Position numbers and translations under genes: made by a program
The notes under the pieces: generated by a model
Told to the model about the DNA's origin: nothing
Database searches by the model: none
What the model saw: only the letters and a program-made list of their open reading frames with translations
NCBI GenBank assembly: GCA_028276145.1
Contig: JAPYWX010000003.1
Coordinates: forward strand, 1 to 34,832
Origin: Spirochaetota bacterium
Lineage (GTDB): Bacteria > Spirochaetota > Brevinematia > DTOW01
Reading direction: 5' to 3'
Length of the DNA stretch: 34,832 nucleotides
Part shown: in pieces, positions 3,525-14,251 of the stretch
Position numbering within the stretch: the stretch's first letter is position 1
How the letters are laid out: every line of letters begins with the position of its first letter

Positions 3525-4166
3525 ATGGATGAACTTGTAAGGGTTGAAATTGATGACATAATAATGACGAATACTGGCTTTGCGATGGTTCTTATTGATA
3601 GAGAAAAAGAAAGAGTACTCCCTATATTCATAGGACCATTTGAAGCAAACGGTATTCTAATGAAGCTTCAAGGTGTTTCTTTTCCTAGGCCTTTAACATA
3701 CGATTTAATAAAAAACATCATTGAAATGATGCAGGGATACGTAGAGAAAGTAGTTATAAACGACCTTAGAGACGGAACATTCTACGCAACACTATACATA
3801 GTAACCAATGACCAAGTCTTGGAAATAGATTCAAGGCCAAGTGATGCAGTAGCAATATGTGTGAGGTCTGGTGCTCCTATATATGTTACCGAAAAAGTTA
3901 TGGCAATGTCCTCCATCCCGCTCGAAGAGTATAGCAGCAAAAAAGGATTCAAGTCACAAGAAGAGATTGAAGAAGAAGCATCAAAAGAAAAAGAAGAACC
4001 AAAACTTTATCAAACCAAAGAAGAAAAAACAAAGCAACAAGCAAAGAAAAAAGAAGTTTTAATTGAAGAACTTAAAAAAGAGCTAGAGAAAGCAGTAAAC
4101 GAAGAAAGATTTGAAGATGCAGCCAGAATAAGAGACGAAATAAAGAAACTAACAGAGGAACTATAA
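3525..4166 (+). CDS. Bifunctional nuclease (BFN) domain protein with C-terminal UVR motif
   Basis: 213 residues in three parts. Residues 1-135 match the BFN/DUF151 family (LPIFIGPFEANGI; LEIDSRPSDAVAICVRSGAPIYV). Residues 138-175 are a Lys/Glu-rich, probably disordered linker. Residues 178-213 form a UVR (UvrB/UvrC) helical-hairpin motif (EELKKELEKAVNEERFEDAA). BFN proteins are reported as nucleases in plants and occur in bacteria, often with this UVR tail, without a settled role; a link to DNA or RNA processing is inference. The ATG at 3525 follows AAAAGGGA almost directly, an unusually short spacing. The 3' end overlaps the convergent gene by six bases. Confidence 0.88.
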   Translation: MDELVRVEIDDIIMTNTGFAMVLIDREKERVLPIFIGPFEANGILMKLQGVSFPRPLTYDLIKNIIEMMQGYVEKVVINDLRDGTFYATLYIVTNDQVLEIDSRPSDAVAICVRSGAPIYVTEKVMAMSSIPLEEYSSKKGFKSQEEIEEEASKEKEEPKLYQTKEEKTKQQAKKKEVLIEELKKELEKAVNEERFEDAARIRDEIKKLTEEL

Positions 4167-4607
4167 CTTCTCTATAAGTTCTCTTACTGTCCTTTTAGCT
4201 TCTGGTATCGCTCTCAGGACAACATCAGATATTTTTTCTTCAAATATCTGAATATTTTCAACTGAGATGCCGACTATTACCACCTTCTTCCCTTCAAGAA
4301 ATCCCATTTTCTTGGCTACTTCTATAGCAAAAGGTACCTCAAACCCATGAGATGAAATAGGCTTTAGATACTTTGGGTAAGAATCCTGATCAACAACAAA
4401 GACTTTACCAGGTTCATCAGCTAACACAGCATCAACAATTACCATTTTTTCGCTATCCTCAGCTAAGTATATGATTCTAGAAGGGTCATTAGTAGTTACA
4501 AATTCAACTTCATCAGAATCTATTTCATCTGAAAGTTCCTCAACTACCTTTATACCTATGTAATCGTCACCACCTAAAGCGTGCCCAACACCTATTACGC
4601 GAATCAT
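4161..4607 (-). CDS. Hydrogenase maturation protease (HycI/HyaD family) homologue
   Basis: 148 residues, the normal length for the family. HycI/HyaD proteases clip the C-terminal tail of nickel-iron hydrogenase large subunits after nickel insertion. The N-terminal motif is GVGHALGGDDYIG (usually GNxLxxDDGxG, so the Asn is replaced by His9). The likely nickel-contacting acidic residues D14/D15 and D59 (VIVDAV) and H87 (SSHG) are present. The start codon overlaps the stop of the upstream gamma-subunit gene as ATGA, so the two are translationally coupled. No hydrogenase subunit is encoded in the window. It could serve a distant hydrogenase or have been recruited to another substrate. Confidence 0.82.
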   Translation of the reverse strand: MIRVIGVGHALGGDDYIGIKVVEELSDEIDSDEVEFVTTNDPSRIIYLAEDSEKMVIVDAVLADEPGKVFVVDQDSYPKYLKPISSHGFEVPFAIEVAKKMGFLEGKKVVIVGISVENIQIFEEKISDVVLRAIPEAKRTVRELIEKL

Positions 4608-5149
4608 AACCTAGCAAAAAGCTCATACCCCACCTTTGCAGCATTTTGGTTGAGTAATACTAGATTGGCTCTCCCCTTCTGCCCAAAAAACTTTTCTATT
4701 CCCTTCAATAAATGCTCAAAAGGATAAAGTTTAGTAATTGCTATAAGGGCTCCCAACATTATCATGTTAGCAAACCTAACATCTCCAAGCTCTAAAGCAA
4801 GTTTATTAGCATCTATAGAAAAAGTCTCTATATCATCTCTTTTTGGCGGGTTATTTACCAAAGATTTGTTGTATATCAAAAAACCACCTTTCTCAACCCA
4901 ATTCTCAAACTTATTCACAGAAGGCTGATTCATGCATACAACAATGTTAGGAGACTGAGTAACCGGCGAAGCTACTTCTTCATCATCTATAACAACCGTA
5001 CAATTAGAAGTACCGCCTCTTTGCTCAGCACCATACGAAGGGAAAAAGGTAGGATACTTACCAGCAAACATAGCACCATAACTGAGTACCATTCCAGCCG
5101 AAAGCACCCCCTGTCCACCAAAACCGGATATTATTACTCTATTCTCCAC
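4604..5149 (-). CDS. 2-oxoacid:ferredoxin oxidoreductase gamma subunit, orphan (KorC/VorC-like)
   Basis: 182 residues covering the whole gamma domain: GFGGQGVLSAGMVLSYGA at the N-terminus, then FFPSYGAEQRGGTSNC and NMIMLGA. Gamma subunits work with thiamine- and iron-sulfur-containing partners to oxidise 2-oxoglutarate, branched-chain 2-oxoacids or pyruvate with ferredoxin as acceptor. I chose the GTG at 5149 because AGGAGG lies seven bases upstream; the longer frame from 5191 has an implausible N-terminus. Alpha, beta and delta partners are absent here, unlike the complete POR set at 9843-12890. The sequence differs clearly from that operon's gamma subunit and looks closer to the 2-oxoglutarate type. 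It is the first gene of its unit, followed by the protease. Confidence 0.85.
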   Translation of the reverse strand: MENRVIISGFGGQGVLSAGMVLSYGAMFAGKYPTFFPSYGAEQRGGTSNCTVVIDDEEVASPVTQSPNIVVCMNQPSVNKFENWVEKGGFLIYNKSLVNNPPKRDDIETFSIDANKLALELGDVRFANMIMLGALIAITKLYPFEHLLKGIEKFFGQKGRANLVLLNQNAAKVGYELFARL

Positions 5150-5248
5150 GGCTTTCCTCCTCACTAAAAGTAGTACCTTGCAATAATACAAGTATAAAAC
5201 AAATCTACAAAAAACTCAAAAAAAGAAGATTATGTTGGACTAAGGTGT

Positions 5249-9842: not shown

Positions 9843-10781
9843 TTATGCAACTCCACAAAGTTTCTTATACTTCTCGTAGTTACTGATAACATCCTGCTTA
9901 AACTTTTCAAGAAGTTCAGGATTCTTAAGCAATTTAGCAAATCTCTTTTGGGATGCTAAAAATTCTTCTATTGGCTTAAGTTGTTTTGGATTTGCTGAAC
10001 TCCACTTGTATACGCCATTTTCGTACTCGACTAACGGCCAATAACCTGTTTCAACCGCAGCCTTCGCTAAAGATACGGCATCACCAACCGGCATATTCCA
10101 ACCAGGGATACAAGGTGTCAGAGAAAGTATAAATGTAGGTCCTTCTACAGTTAACGCTTTTTGGATTTTTGTTATGAGGTCATTCCAGTGATATATGCTA
10201 ACGGTTGCTGCGTATGGTATACCATGAGCAACAGCAATTGCGAACAAATCTTTTCTTGTTTGTGTTTTTCCTGGGATTTTTTTACCAAACGGTGCAGTGG
10301 TAGTATCAGCATACAGAGGTGTAGCACTACTTCTCTGATAACCTGTATTCATGTAAGCTTCGTTATCGTAAGCAATATAAAGTATATTGTGTCCTCTCTC
10401 TAGAGCACCCGACAAACTCTGTAAACCTATATCGAAGCTAGCACCATCACCACCAATGGCAACGAATTTTACCTTTCTGTCATCTTTTATCTTTCCTTTA
10501 GCCTTAAGAGCATAATAAGCTCTTTCCACACCTGATATTGCAGCAGGAGCATTCTCAAATGCCACATGTAACCAAGGGTATTTCCAAGCACTCTCGGGAT
10601 ACACACTACTTGTAACTTCCAAACATCCTGTAGCATTAGCTATAACAACATCAACACCAGCAGTCTTCGAAGCAATAAATAGTTCTCTAACGAAAACAGC
10701 AACACCACAGCCAGCACACATTCTGTGCCCTTTAACATAAGCAGCTTCCATTCCAGCAATTTGCTTTAAATTAATAGCCAT
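9843..10781 (-). CDS. porB: Pyruvate:ferredoxin oxidoreductase, beta subunit
   Basis: 312 residues, the thiamine-diphosphate-binding subunit. Cysteines C22 and C25 (MCAGCGVAVF), C53 (NATGCLEV) and C224 (TPCIPGW) would hold the 4Fe-4S cluster, and the thiamine motif runs from GDG (111-113) to N140. The subunit decarboxylates pyruvate and passes electrons to the delta subunit and ferredoxin, giving acetyl-CoA. It is the last of four genes (gamma-delta-alpha-beta), three bases behind the alpha subunit, with a strong terminator following. The assignment to pyruvate rather than another 2-oxoacid rests on overall similarity to four-subunit POR and is likely but not proven. Confidence 0.92.
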   Translation of the reverse strand: MAINLKQIAGMEAAYVKGHRMCAGCGVAVFVRELFIASKTAGVDVVIANATGCLEVTSSVYPESAWKYPWLHVAFENAPAAISGVERAYYALKAKGKIKDDRKVKFVAIGGDGASFDIGLQSLSGALERGHNILYIAYDNEAYMNTGYQRSSATPLYADTTTAPFGKKIPGKTQTRKDLFAIAVAHGIPYAATVSIYHWNDLITKIQKALTVEGPTFILSLTPCIPGWNMPVGDAVSLAKAAVETGYWPLVEYENGVYKWSSANPKQLKPIEEFLASQKRFAKLLKNPELLEKFKQDVISNYEKYKKLCGVA

Positions 10782-10784
10782 AAA

Positions 10785-12005
10785 CTACCTCCCTAAAAGA
10801 TTAGGATTTAATCCTACATAAACAATTTGGCCAGAGATACCTTCTTTCAAAGAATATTCTGCATGCTCGTACATCTCGTAAGCATCATCATCGGTGAAAT
10901 CTCTACCACCTAAACCATAGATGTAATCATTAACCAAAACAATTCTTTTATTAGCAAAAAGTCCTGAAGTTATGTCTTGATAAAGTGGTGAACCAGTAGT
11001 ACCTATACTAAGAGCTCTATCCATGACAGCAATGAATTTAGCCGAAGGTATCAGCTCTAAGAACTTTTCGACTACAAAAGGTCTATAGACCCTGACCTTG
11101 ATAACACCTACCTTCTTCCCTTTCTCTCTCAATTTGTCAACTACATACCTTATAGTTCCAGCAGTAGAGTTCATAACAACAAAAACTATCTCCGCATCTT
11201 CCGTTTTGTACGCCTCAAAGAAATCCATCTTTACACCTGTTTCTTTATAAAACTCTTCAAAAACTTTTTCTATTACGCCTACTGACCTATCCATAGCTTT
11301 TTTCATGTCAACTCTAAATTCAAAGTAATGAGAAGGCATTGCCCACTCACCGGCAGATATAGGATTATCAAAGTCAAGAATGTTATAAGGTGCTTTATAT
11401 TCCCCTACGAAATTCTTCACAAAAGAGTCCTCAAACACATCTACAGCCTCAACGCAGTGGCTTGTGATAAATCCATCCTGGTTGACCGCAACAGGCAAAA
11501 ATACATCTGGATGCTCACCTATTCTAAAAGCAACAATATTGTTATGATAAACCTCTTGTGGATTCTCTGAAAATAGCATTATCCATCCCAAATCTCTGAT
11601 AGCCATAGCGTCAGAGTGGTCACAATGGATGTTAAGAGGAGCTGAAATAGCTCTATTCACAATGTTCATAACAATTGGTAATCTCATCGAAGAAGCAATA
11701 GCCACTACCTCCCACATCAGAGCTAATCCTTGAGAAGATGTCGCAGTCATAGCTCTAGCGCCAGACATTGCTGCCCCAACAACTGCACTTAAAGCACTAT
11801 GCTCAGACTCAACCTGTATCATTTCAGTATTAACAAGTCCATCAGCTACAAATTGAGCGAATTCCTGAACTATCGGTGTCTGAGGAGTAATAGGATAAGC
11901 AGCAACTACATCAGGCTCAACCTGCCTCATAACCTCAGCAGCAGCTTGAGCACCTGTCAAAGCTTTCCTAACAACAGATACTTTTGATACTACACCATCA
12001 CTCAT
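10785..12005 (-). CDS. porA: Pyruvate:ferredoxin oxidoreductase, alpha subunit
   Basis: 406 residues, typical length. The N-terminal pyrimidine-binding domain shows AAYPITPQTPIVQEFA, EMIQVESEHSALSAVVGAA and ATSSQGLALMWE; the C-terminal transketolase-like domain follows from about residue 255. With the beta subunit it forms the active site where pyruvate is bound and CoA enters. A ten-base gap separates it from the delta subunit gene upstream, and three bases from beta downstream. The start at 12005 is preceded by TAAGGAGGT. The enzyme is oxygen-sensitive and is a mark of anaerobic metabolism. Confidence 0.94.
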   Translation of the reverse strand: MSDGVVSKVSVVRKALTGAQAAAEVMRQVEPDVVAAYPITPQTPIVQEFAQFVADGLVNTEMIQVESEHSALSAVVGAAMSGARAMTATSSQGLALMWEVVAIASSMRLPIVMNIVNRAISAPLNIHCDHSDAMAIRDLGWIMLFSENPQEVYHNNIVAFRIGEHPDVFLPVAVNQDGFITSHCVEAVDVFEDSFVKNFVGEYKAPYNILDFDNPISAGEWAMPSHYFEFRVDMKKAMDRSVGVIEKVFEEFYKETGVKMDFFEAYKTEDAEIVFVVMNSTAGTIRYVVDKLREKGKKVGVIKVRVYRPFVVEKFLELIPSAKFIAVMDRALSIGTTGSPLYQDITSGLFANKRIVLVNDYIYGLGGRDFTDDDAYEMYEHAEYSLKEGISGQIVYVGLNPNLLGR

Positions 12006-12015
12006 AAATACCTCC

Positions 12016-12303
12016 TTAAACCTCTGGTACCATACTTATAGCTTTTGTCGGGCAAACATTTGAACATAAAGAACAACCTTTACAATAATCATAATCAAAT
12101 CCTAACATCTGACCATCCTTAACAACTATGCTATCATCTGGACAATTTAACCAACATATCATACAATTCACGCATTTTTCCTTATTTAAAACTGGTCTAA
12201 ACGACCTCCAACCACCTGTCTTGTTTTCAAGAGAAGTACCACCTTTAGCATAGCCACCCGGATTTATAGAAAAAGATACTATCTCCTTGTCTACCTTCAA
12301 CAT
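12016..12303 (-). CDS. porD: Pyruvate:ferredoxin oxidoreductase, delta (ferredoxin-like) subunit
   Basis: 95 residues carrying two complete 4Fe-4S motifs: C44, C47, C50, C54 (CVNCMICWLNCP) and C74, C77, C80, C84 (CKGCSLCSNVCP). The N-terminal part contains GGWRSFRPV, characteristic of POR delta subunits. It relays electrons from the thiamine site to free ferredoxin. It follows the gamma gene by two bases and precedes alpha by ten, so it is co-transcribed and probably translationally linked. Confidence 0.94.
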   Translation of the reverse strand: MLKVDKEIVSFSINPGGYAKGGTSLENKTGGWRSFRPVLNKEKCVNCMICWLNCPDDSIVVKDGQMLGFDYDYCKGCSLCSNVCPTKAISMVPEV

Positions 12304-12305
12304 AC

Positions 12306-12890
12306 CTACCCTCCTATAATTTCACTCATTCCCTTATCAAATGCTAACAAGTTTTTATTGACCCCTTCCTCACCTAACTTCTTAATAAACTTCTTCCTTA
12401 TACTCTCTTTAACCTTCTCGGGATCTATTATACCAACTATCTTAACCGTAGCTCCCAAAAGAGGAATATTAGCAAAATTTTTACCAAAAAGGTCAAGAGC
12501 TATTTTCGTAGCGTTCACAGTGTAAACTTTCACATTACTAGGAATATTATACTTCTTCCTAACAGTATCCGGTGAATCAGAAGTATTAACAATAATACAA
12601 GAATCCTCTTTAATACCTTCCAAAACATTTTCAGCATGGAACAAACTCTCATCCATAACAACAACTACATCAGGCTTCGTTATCTGATAATGAACAGATA
12701 TTTTATCTTTGGAAATCCTACTATACGCCTTCATTGGTGCTCCAGTTCTCTCAGCACCAAACTCCGGAAATGACTGAGCATACATGCCTATGTCTATAGC
12801 AGCCTCTGCAAGAAGCTGAGCTGCTGTCTTGGCACCTTGACCAGCCCTACCGTGTATCCTTATATCATAAAACTCTTTCACCCCAACCAT
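12306..12890 (-). CDS. porC: Pyruvate:ferredoxin oxidoreductase, gamma subunit
   Basis: 194 residues from the ATG at 12890, chosen because GGGGGTG lies just upstream; an in-frame ATG at 12908 lacks this. Family motifs are IRIHGRAGQGAKTAAQLLAEAA, QSFPEFGAERTGAP and NIPLLGATVKI. The gamma domain is thought to take part in CoA binding. It is the first gene of the operon, behind a good promoter at 12909-12938. It is clearly distinct in sequence from the orphan gamma subunit at 4604-5149. Confidence 0.93.
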   Translation of the reverse strand: MVGVKEFYDIRIHGRAGQGAKTAAQLLAEAAIDIGMYAQSFPEFGAERTGAPMKAYSRISKDKISVHYQITKPDVVVVMDESLFHAENVLEGIKEDSCIIVNTSDSPDTVRKKYNIPSNVKVYTVNATKIALDLFGKNFANIPLLGATVKIVGIIDPEKVKESIRKKFIKKLGEEGVNKNLLAFDKGMSEIIGG

Positions 12891-12908
12891 AACACCCCCT
12901 GATTTCAA

Positions 12909-13360: not shown

Positions 13361-14251
13361 CTAGAAAGTAAAGACTAAGAATTCAAATAACTTGACAGTG
13401 AAGTAAAAGCCAACCTTTATGATAATCGCTAATGCTACTCCACCCACGATAATGTAGAGAGGCATAAGTACCGAACTTTTCCTCATTCGCCACATCCAAC
13501 CAAAAGTTATACTGAATAGCATGAAAATAAAACCTATTGTAGGCATAAATATTTTCTCATAAAGAACAAGGTTTATAGGTGATGGTTTTATTTCAAAAAC
13601 AGTAAATGAGTCCCTAACTACTGGGAACTCCCAAATACTCATGAAATTTTCTTTCGAAATGTAAAACAGAAGAACTTTCTCAAGGTCACCGTCAAGTTTG
13701 TAACTCTTCTTACCTAAAATTAGTTCTCTAGTCCCCAGTATGTAAGAAGCAACAGCAAAAAATTCTTTTTTTGAAAAGCTACTCTTATCCACAAGATAAA
13801 CATTTCTTAAAATTATGTTTTTAGACTTACTGTCACACTGAGCTTTACCTATCATAAGGTAATTTCTCTTATCAAATCCTACAATGATATCTTTCAGCCC
13901 TTCATTATAAAATCTCTGTTTTACCAATGTAGGCATTACCAATTCTTGTAGGGCAACAATAGCAAGCAGAACAAATATTGTTAGCAAGACCGAAGGCACA
14001 AATAATCCTGCCGGTGAACTTGAAGAAAGCGAAGACAGCCTATTATCTGGGAGCATGAAAGTATAAACAACAAATACAGCAACACTGCCTGCTACCGGAA
14101 GCTCTAAAACGATTATCCTCAACAAATTAAAAATCCTATTTTTCTCATCACTCAACGAGTTAGTTACTAAACCAGTGAATATAACAAGAACGACAAGAGC
14201 TATTATGAAGGAAATGATTACTCTACTACTAACATAGCTTTGAGGTTTCAT
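13361..14251 (-). CDS. Membrane protein, possible LptF/LptG-like permease (second of a pair)
   Basis: 296 residues. Three hydrophobic helices (about 12-32, 43-65, 82-108), a soluble beta-rich region (about 110-225) and two or three C-terminal helices (about 230-285). This 3+3 layout around a periplasmic domain is that of LptF/LptG, the inner-membrane permeases of lipopolysaccharide export; SLSSSSPAGLFVPSVLL after the second helix fits the family's cytoplasmic loop. I see no decisive motif, so the assignment is tentative. It overlaps the upstream gene by ATGA, so the two are made together, as expected for a heterodimer. A four-unit palindrome array begins five bases after its stop. Confidence 0.55.
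   Translation of the reverse strand: MKPQSYVSSRVIISFIIALVVLVIFTGLVTNSLSDEKNRIFNLLRIIVLELPVAGSVAVFVVYTFMLPDNRLSSLSSSSPAGLFVPSVLLTIFVLLAIVALQELVMPTLVKQRFYNEGLKDIIVGFDKRNYLMIGKAQCDSKSKNIILRNVYLVDKSSFSKKEFFAVASYILGTRELILGKKSYKLDGDLEKVLLFYISKENFMSIWEFPVVRDSFTVFEIKPSPINLVLYEKIFMPTIGFIFMLFSITFGWMWRMRKSSVLMPLYIIVGGVALAIIIKVGFYFTVKLFEFLVFTF

Follow-up and report, generated by a model that had tools for sequence, protein, structure and literature searches.

We found that two overlapping genes in a 34,832-nucleotide stretch of a Spirochaetota genome (the whole stretch analyzed, hereafter the window) encode a gamma subunit, very probably the KorC of a KorDABC oxidoreductase whose genes have been split apart, and a hydrogenase maturation protease of ordinary type with a slight variation. 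The two genes have very probably been displaced in the family to which this genome (G000) belongs, and lie next to each other in G000 by happenstance. What looked like an orphan subunit pair was explained by a census of the whole genome and its relatives; the gene pair matters little by itself.

Table 1 Features of the window discussed in the text, with positions counted from its first nucleotide.
Feature	Position	Strand	Details
Bifunctional nuclease domain and UVR motif protein	3525..4166	+	PF02577, PF02151; convergent neighbor, outside the unit
[NiFe]-hydrogenase maturation protease, HycI/HyaD superfamily, predicted HoxW-like role	4161..4607	-	ATG at 4607, stop at 4161; 148 aa
ATGA stop/start overlap of korC and protease genes	4604..4607	-	Read directly
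korC, gamma subunit of 2-oxoacid:ferredoxin oxidoreductase	4604..5149	-	GTG start at 5149, stop at 4604; 181 aa
Region upstream of the korC start	5150..5165	-	Shine-Dalgarno-like GAGGAGG; sequence AGTGAGGAGGAAAGCCGTGGAG
Separate complete POR operon	9843..12908	-	Order porG-D-A-B, own gamma; 4.7 kb from the gene pair
porB	9843-10781	-	Window POR operon
porA	10785-12005	-	Window POR operon
porD	12016-12303	-	Window POR operon
porG	12306-12908	-	Gamma of the window POR operon

An initial annotation of the window had described an ATGA overlap between a gamma subunit gene and a gene for a HycI/HyaD-family protease, and this overlap was confirmed. It is unremarkable because a second ATGA overlap in the window (14248-14251) joins two unrelated genes. 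The overlap, together with the lack of a terminator-like site, suggests that the two genes are probably carried on one transcript in G000. Both flanking genes are unrelated to the pair: EF-Ts is the divergent neighbor, and the convergent bifunctional nuclease/UVR gene shares 6 bases with the 3' end of the protease gene.

The gamma gene product was assigned to the POR family of Pfam (PF01558; E 3e-43, 148 bits against a cut-off of 27.4) and passed the PorC_KorC model of NCBIfam (TIGR02175; 93.9 bits against a cut-off of 81.1). The description of this gene as lacking alpha, beta and delta partners is correct at the locus itself, but a complete POR operon with its own gamma lies only 4.7 kb away in the window. 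Partnership of the window gamma with this operon was considered and rejected because POR already has a gamma. G000 is a fragmented assembly (1.57 Mb in 202 contigs, 82.7% complete) in which we found three PF01558 gammas (the window gene, PorG of the window POR operon, and the gamma half of a gamma-alpha fusion on contig C46) and three PF01855 alphas (that of POR, that of the fusion on C46, and KorA on contig C108). On C108, korD-korA-korB (165-2340) are followed by purC on the opposite strand; the KorA encoded there passes a VorB-type model, and cognate alpha, beta and delta are present without any other gamma. KorA and KorB genes lacking a gamma subunit, which the initial annotation had proposed looking for, were thus found. 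Since the other two gammas of G000 pair within their own operon or fusion, the window gamma is by elimination the gamma of KorDAB. We infer that it is the KorC of a split KorDABC and that it would assemble with KorDAB. C108 starts 165 bases before korD, so that from G000 alone a second gamma upstream would be possible; in three relatives, where korDAB has intact flanks with unrelated genes on both sides, no gamma lies beside it and the gamma is a lone gene (G001-G003).

The protease matched HycI of Pfam (PF01750; E 3e-11, 43.8 bits against a cut-off of 23) and hydrog_prot of NCBIfam (TIGR00072; 84.6 bits against a cut-off of 47.45), and it did not reach the equivalog cut-offs for hycI, hupD or frhD. 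The likely metal ligands that had been noted in its sequence are indeed retained: Asp15, Asp59 and His87 are invariant in all five family members and align with Glu16, Asp62 and His93 of E. coli HybD, which we take to be the metal ligands of that enzyme. An AlphaFold model of the protease (mean pLDDT 82.5, with low confidence in the loop 82-89 that carries His87) had E. coli HybD as its best match in the PDB (1cfz, TM 0.78), followed by Thermococcus HycI and HybD, and thus predicts a HybD-like alpha/beta fold. The two-Asp-plus-His arrangement of metal ligands in such proteases has been reviewed (PMC12134894).

A presumed client of this protease is encoded elsewhere in the genome. The initial annotation had remarked that no hydrogenase is nearby, which holds for the window; in G000 as a whole, however, contig C11 carries genes for a HoxFUYH-like [NiFe] hydrogenase (NuoF-like, HoxU-like, small and large subunits), with hypE and hypA ~5 kb from them. 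A hypD gene is split over two contig ends (C130:49-1092 and C11:3-92), so C130 and C11 probably adjoin, which would place the hyp genes near the hydrogenase. The large subunit of G000 ends in DPCLSCSTH followed by a 25-residue tail, which supplies the large subunit with a cleavable tail that had been suggested as a check, and one HoxH-like large subunit with this motif and a tail of this length is present in each of the family genomes (5/5). Several enzymes in the PDB have mature large subunits whose last residue is the His of DPCxxCxxH (query position 450). Judging from these sequences, the HoxH-like subunit is the expected substrate of the protease, which would cleave off its tail. The HoxH and protease genes are unlinked in all five family genomes, while 19 of 25 other protease loci of the phylum have a NiFe large subunit gene in their 1.5 kb flank, indicating that the usual linkage of protease and hydrogenase was lost in the window's family.

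Two further observations concern the hydrogenase. In a phylum search, the protease profile of the family matched in none of the 13 class-mates outside it, so that either a gain in the family or a loss in the remaining class-mates probably explains where hydrogenase and protease occur. G003 has an additional NuoF-like gene (L055 10095-11807, 570 aa) next to its hydrogenase cluster, which was not seen beside the intact clusters of G001 and G002. Among the papers searched, none dealt with Brevinematales carrying a hydrogenase.

When the same gene pair was sought in related genomes, as the initial annotation had advised, the gamma and protease genes were adjacent in G000 only among the five family genomes. 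Adjacency across a phylum sample of 296 genomes was read from the listed matches of the gamma and protease searches, and no other genome had a gamma and a protease match within 10 kb of each other among the matches listed; the nearest other case among them (G112, 12 kb apart) involves a lower-scoring second gamma. The idea of a joint role not described for either protein family is not supported by these results, whereas the alternative offered with it, a split operon with its remaining parts elsewhere, holds for both genes (korDAB on C108 and the hydrogenase on C11). We therefore consider it very unlikely that the pair is a functional unit in which translational coupling sets the amounts of KorC and protease together and so co-regulates ferredoxin and hydrogen production in the genus. 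Such a unit would fit the ATGA overlap, the likely common transcript and the fact that the closest solved chain to the HoxH-like subunit is HydL of Acetomicrobium mobile HydABCSL (7t2r, 564 bits), a bifurcating NiFe hydrogenase (PMC8880783), but it is opposed by the fact that the two genes are adjacent in none of the four family relatives and lie more than 10 kb apart among the matches listed for the rest of the phylum sample, and by the identical ATGA that joins unrelated genes in the window; moreover, with KorC being one subunit of four and the protease acting as a catalyst, neither would obviously set a rate. A loose metabolic link may exist through ferredoxin, which KorDABC would reduce and which could serve a HydABCSL-like enzyme, but the gamma-protease pairing is too restricted to argue for such a link. 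Still less probable is the proposal that translational coupling makes KorC and the protease a control point in the genus, tying ferredoxin reduction by the dispersed KorDABC to the maturation of a ferredoxin-linked hydrogenase, with the His-variant protease tuned to this task.

The distribution of the gamma gene across the family, whose five genomes (G000-G004) are the sample's only members of their order, also bears on whether it is truly the partner of KorDAB. G000-G003 have both gamma and KorA, G004 has neither, and the gamma is unlinked to korDAB in 4/4 family genomes that carry it. It is highly improbable that the window gamma is instead a spare or alternative subunit for POR or for the fused oxidoreductase, or a decaying relic. 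The POR operon near the pair, and the position of the gamma in G001, 217 bp behind a different oxidoreductase encoded as a fused gamma-alpha/beta pair, could be read in this way, but neither POR nor the fusion lacks a gamma of its own, the window gamma occurs exactly where korDAB does in the family, and it is 73-74% identical with an intact open reading frame in the four genomes. Its homologues in the phylum are, in addition, all KorC of korDABC: of 53 homologues examined outside the family (8 in class-mates and 45 in other members of the phylum), every one is either fused to korB or directly preceded by a korB of the same orientation. KorDABC is thus the standard unit, with korDABC as the ancestral gene order, and it was split in the window's family.

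Two variations in korB were seen along the way. Four phylum genomes carry a single open reading frame of 479-535 aa that joins korB and korC (L121 4002-5477; L128 1971-3575; L129 207-1646; L133 2625-4061), the opposite of the split in the window's family. In G003, korB (L051 7279-8043) has an in-frame stop that leaves pieces of 134 and 118 aa, and may be a pseudogene or reflect an assembly error.

The trees of the subunits differ in where they place the family. In a tree of KorA and KorB, the family is sister to class-mates that retain korDABC (SH-aLRT 98), whereas the gamma tree places it at a deep, unresolved branching of KorC sequences, apart from its class-mates. Family KorC is 35-41% identical to that of class-mates and up to 52% identical to that of other phylum members. 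Forcing the family gamma to group with class-mates carries a penalty of 5.8 log units, and the AU test does not reject this grouping (p 0.288); the data are therefore compatible with vertical descent of a korC that changed fast once it had moved. The discordant placement of KorC and KorA/B prompted us to consider replacement by a foreign korC, which, given the AU result, we do not claim.

The His in place of the family Asn that had been pointed out in the protease was verified: the N-terminal motif, GHALGGDD, has His where GxGN has Asn in 5/5 family members. Outside the family, the position is Asn in 24 of the 25 other phylum loci examined and Ser in one. The variant His, at residue 9, is not among the three metal ligands, and the Asn of GxGN is likewise usual but no ligand. 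In scans of wider contig records for relatives, a single-sequence scan gave no match and an alignment scan gave one record (CALFVP010000013.1), evidently the G004 contig and the only further record in which an exact GHALGGDD was found attached to a relative; a plasmid search for His variants gave six remote matches, of which the two that were read (both Streptomyces) have the usual GxGN. Least probable of all the readings is that the protease acts on another substrate (e.g., KorC or another protein) and that the His change marks new chemistry, since the fixation of His within the family, which might suggest this, is outweighed by the retained metal ligands and predicted HybD fold and by the presence of exactly one HycI-type protease match in each of five genomes that each encode a tailed HoxH, and we know of no cleavable NiFe-type tail on gamma subunits.

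Under the favored explanation, in which a displaced korC and a displaced protease gene met by happenstance, KorC would combine with KorD, KorA and KorB, made from another contig, to form a 2-oxoacid:ferredoxin oxidoreductase that would oxidatively decarboxylate a 2-oxoacid to acyl-CoA while reducing ferredoxin. The Hyp proteins would insert the NiFe(CN)2CO site before proteolysis, and the protease would then cut the HoxH-like subunit after DPCLSCSTH, releasing its 25 C-terminal residues. Both genes would have left their ancestral operons in the family and dispersed, and in G000 the two loose genes would have come to lie head to tail, creating the ATGA junction and probably a single transcript; a joint molecular function would not be needed. 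These results document the departure, in one lineage, of korC from a korDABC operon that is constant elsewhere, and of the protease gene from the hydrogenase cluster. The fixed His in the GxGN motif is a minor variation, open to testing, within a protease family that has been studied in depth.

Comparison with known systems places each component within an established family. The C11 cluster resembles the NAD-reducing HoxFUYH and bifurcating HydABCSL hydrogenases in having large, small, NuoF-like and HoxU-like subunits; it differs from HydABCSL of Acetomicrobium mobile in that this four-gene cluster has no separate HydC-like gene that we could see beside it. The protease shares its fold, as modeled, and its Asp/Asp/His ligands with the HycI/HyaD/HybD/HoxW proteases, and the Hyp proteins and a tailed large subunit are present in its genome as well; it departs from them in having GHALGGDD rather than the usual GxGN...D(D/E) and in being encoded away from the hydrogenase. 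Finally, the window gamma scores in the same families (TIGR02175, PF01558) as the KorC/PorC proteins of korDABC operons in the phylum, and G000 has the full KorD, KorA, KorB and KorC set, but korC in the window's family is unlinked from korDAB, whereas in all 53 relatives it follows korB or is fused to it. Linkage of korC to korDAB is usual, yet inessential to membership in the KorC protein family.
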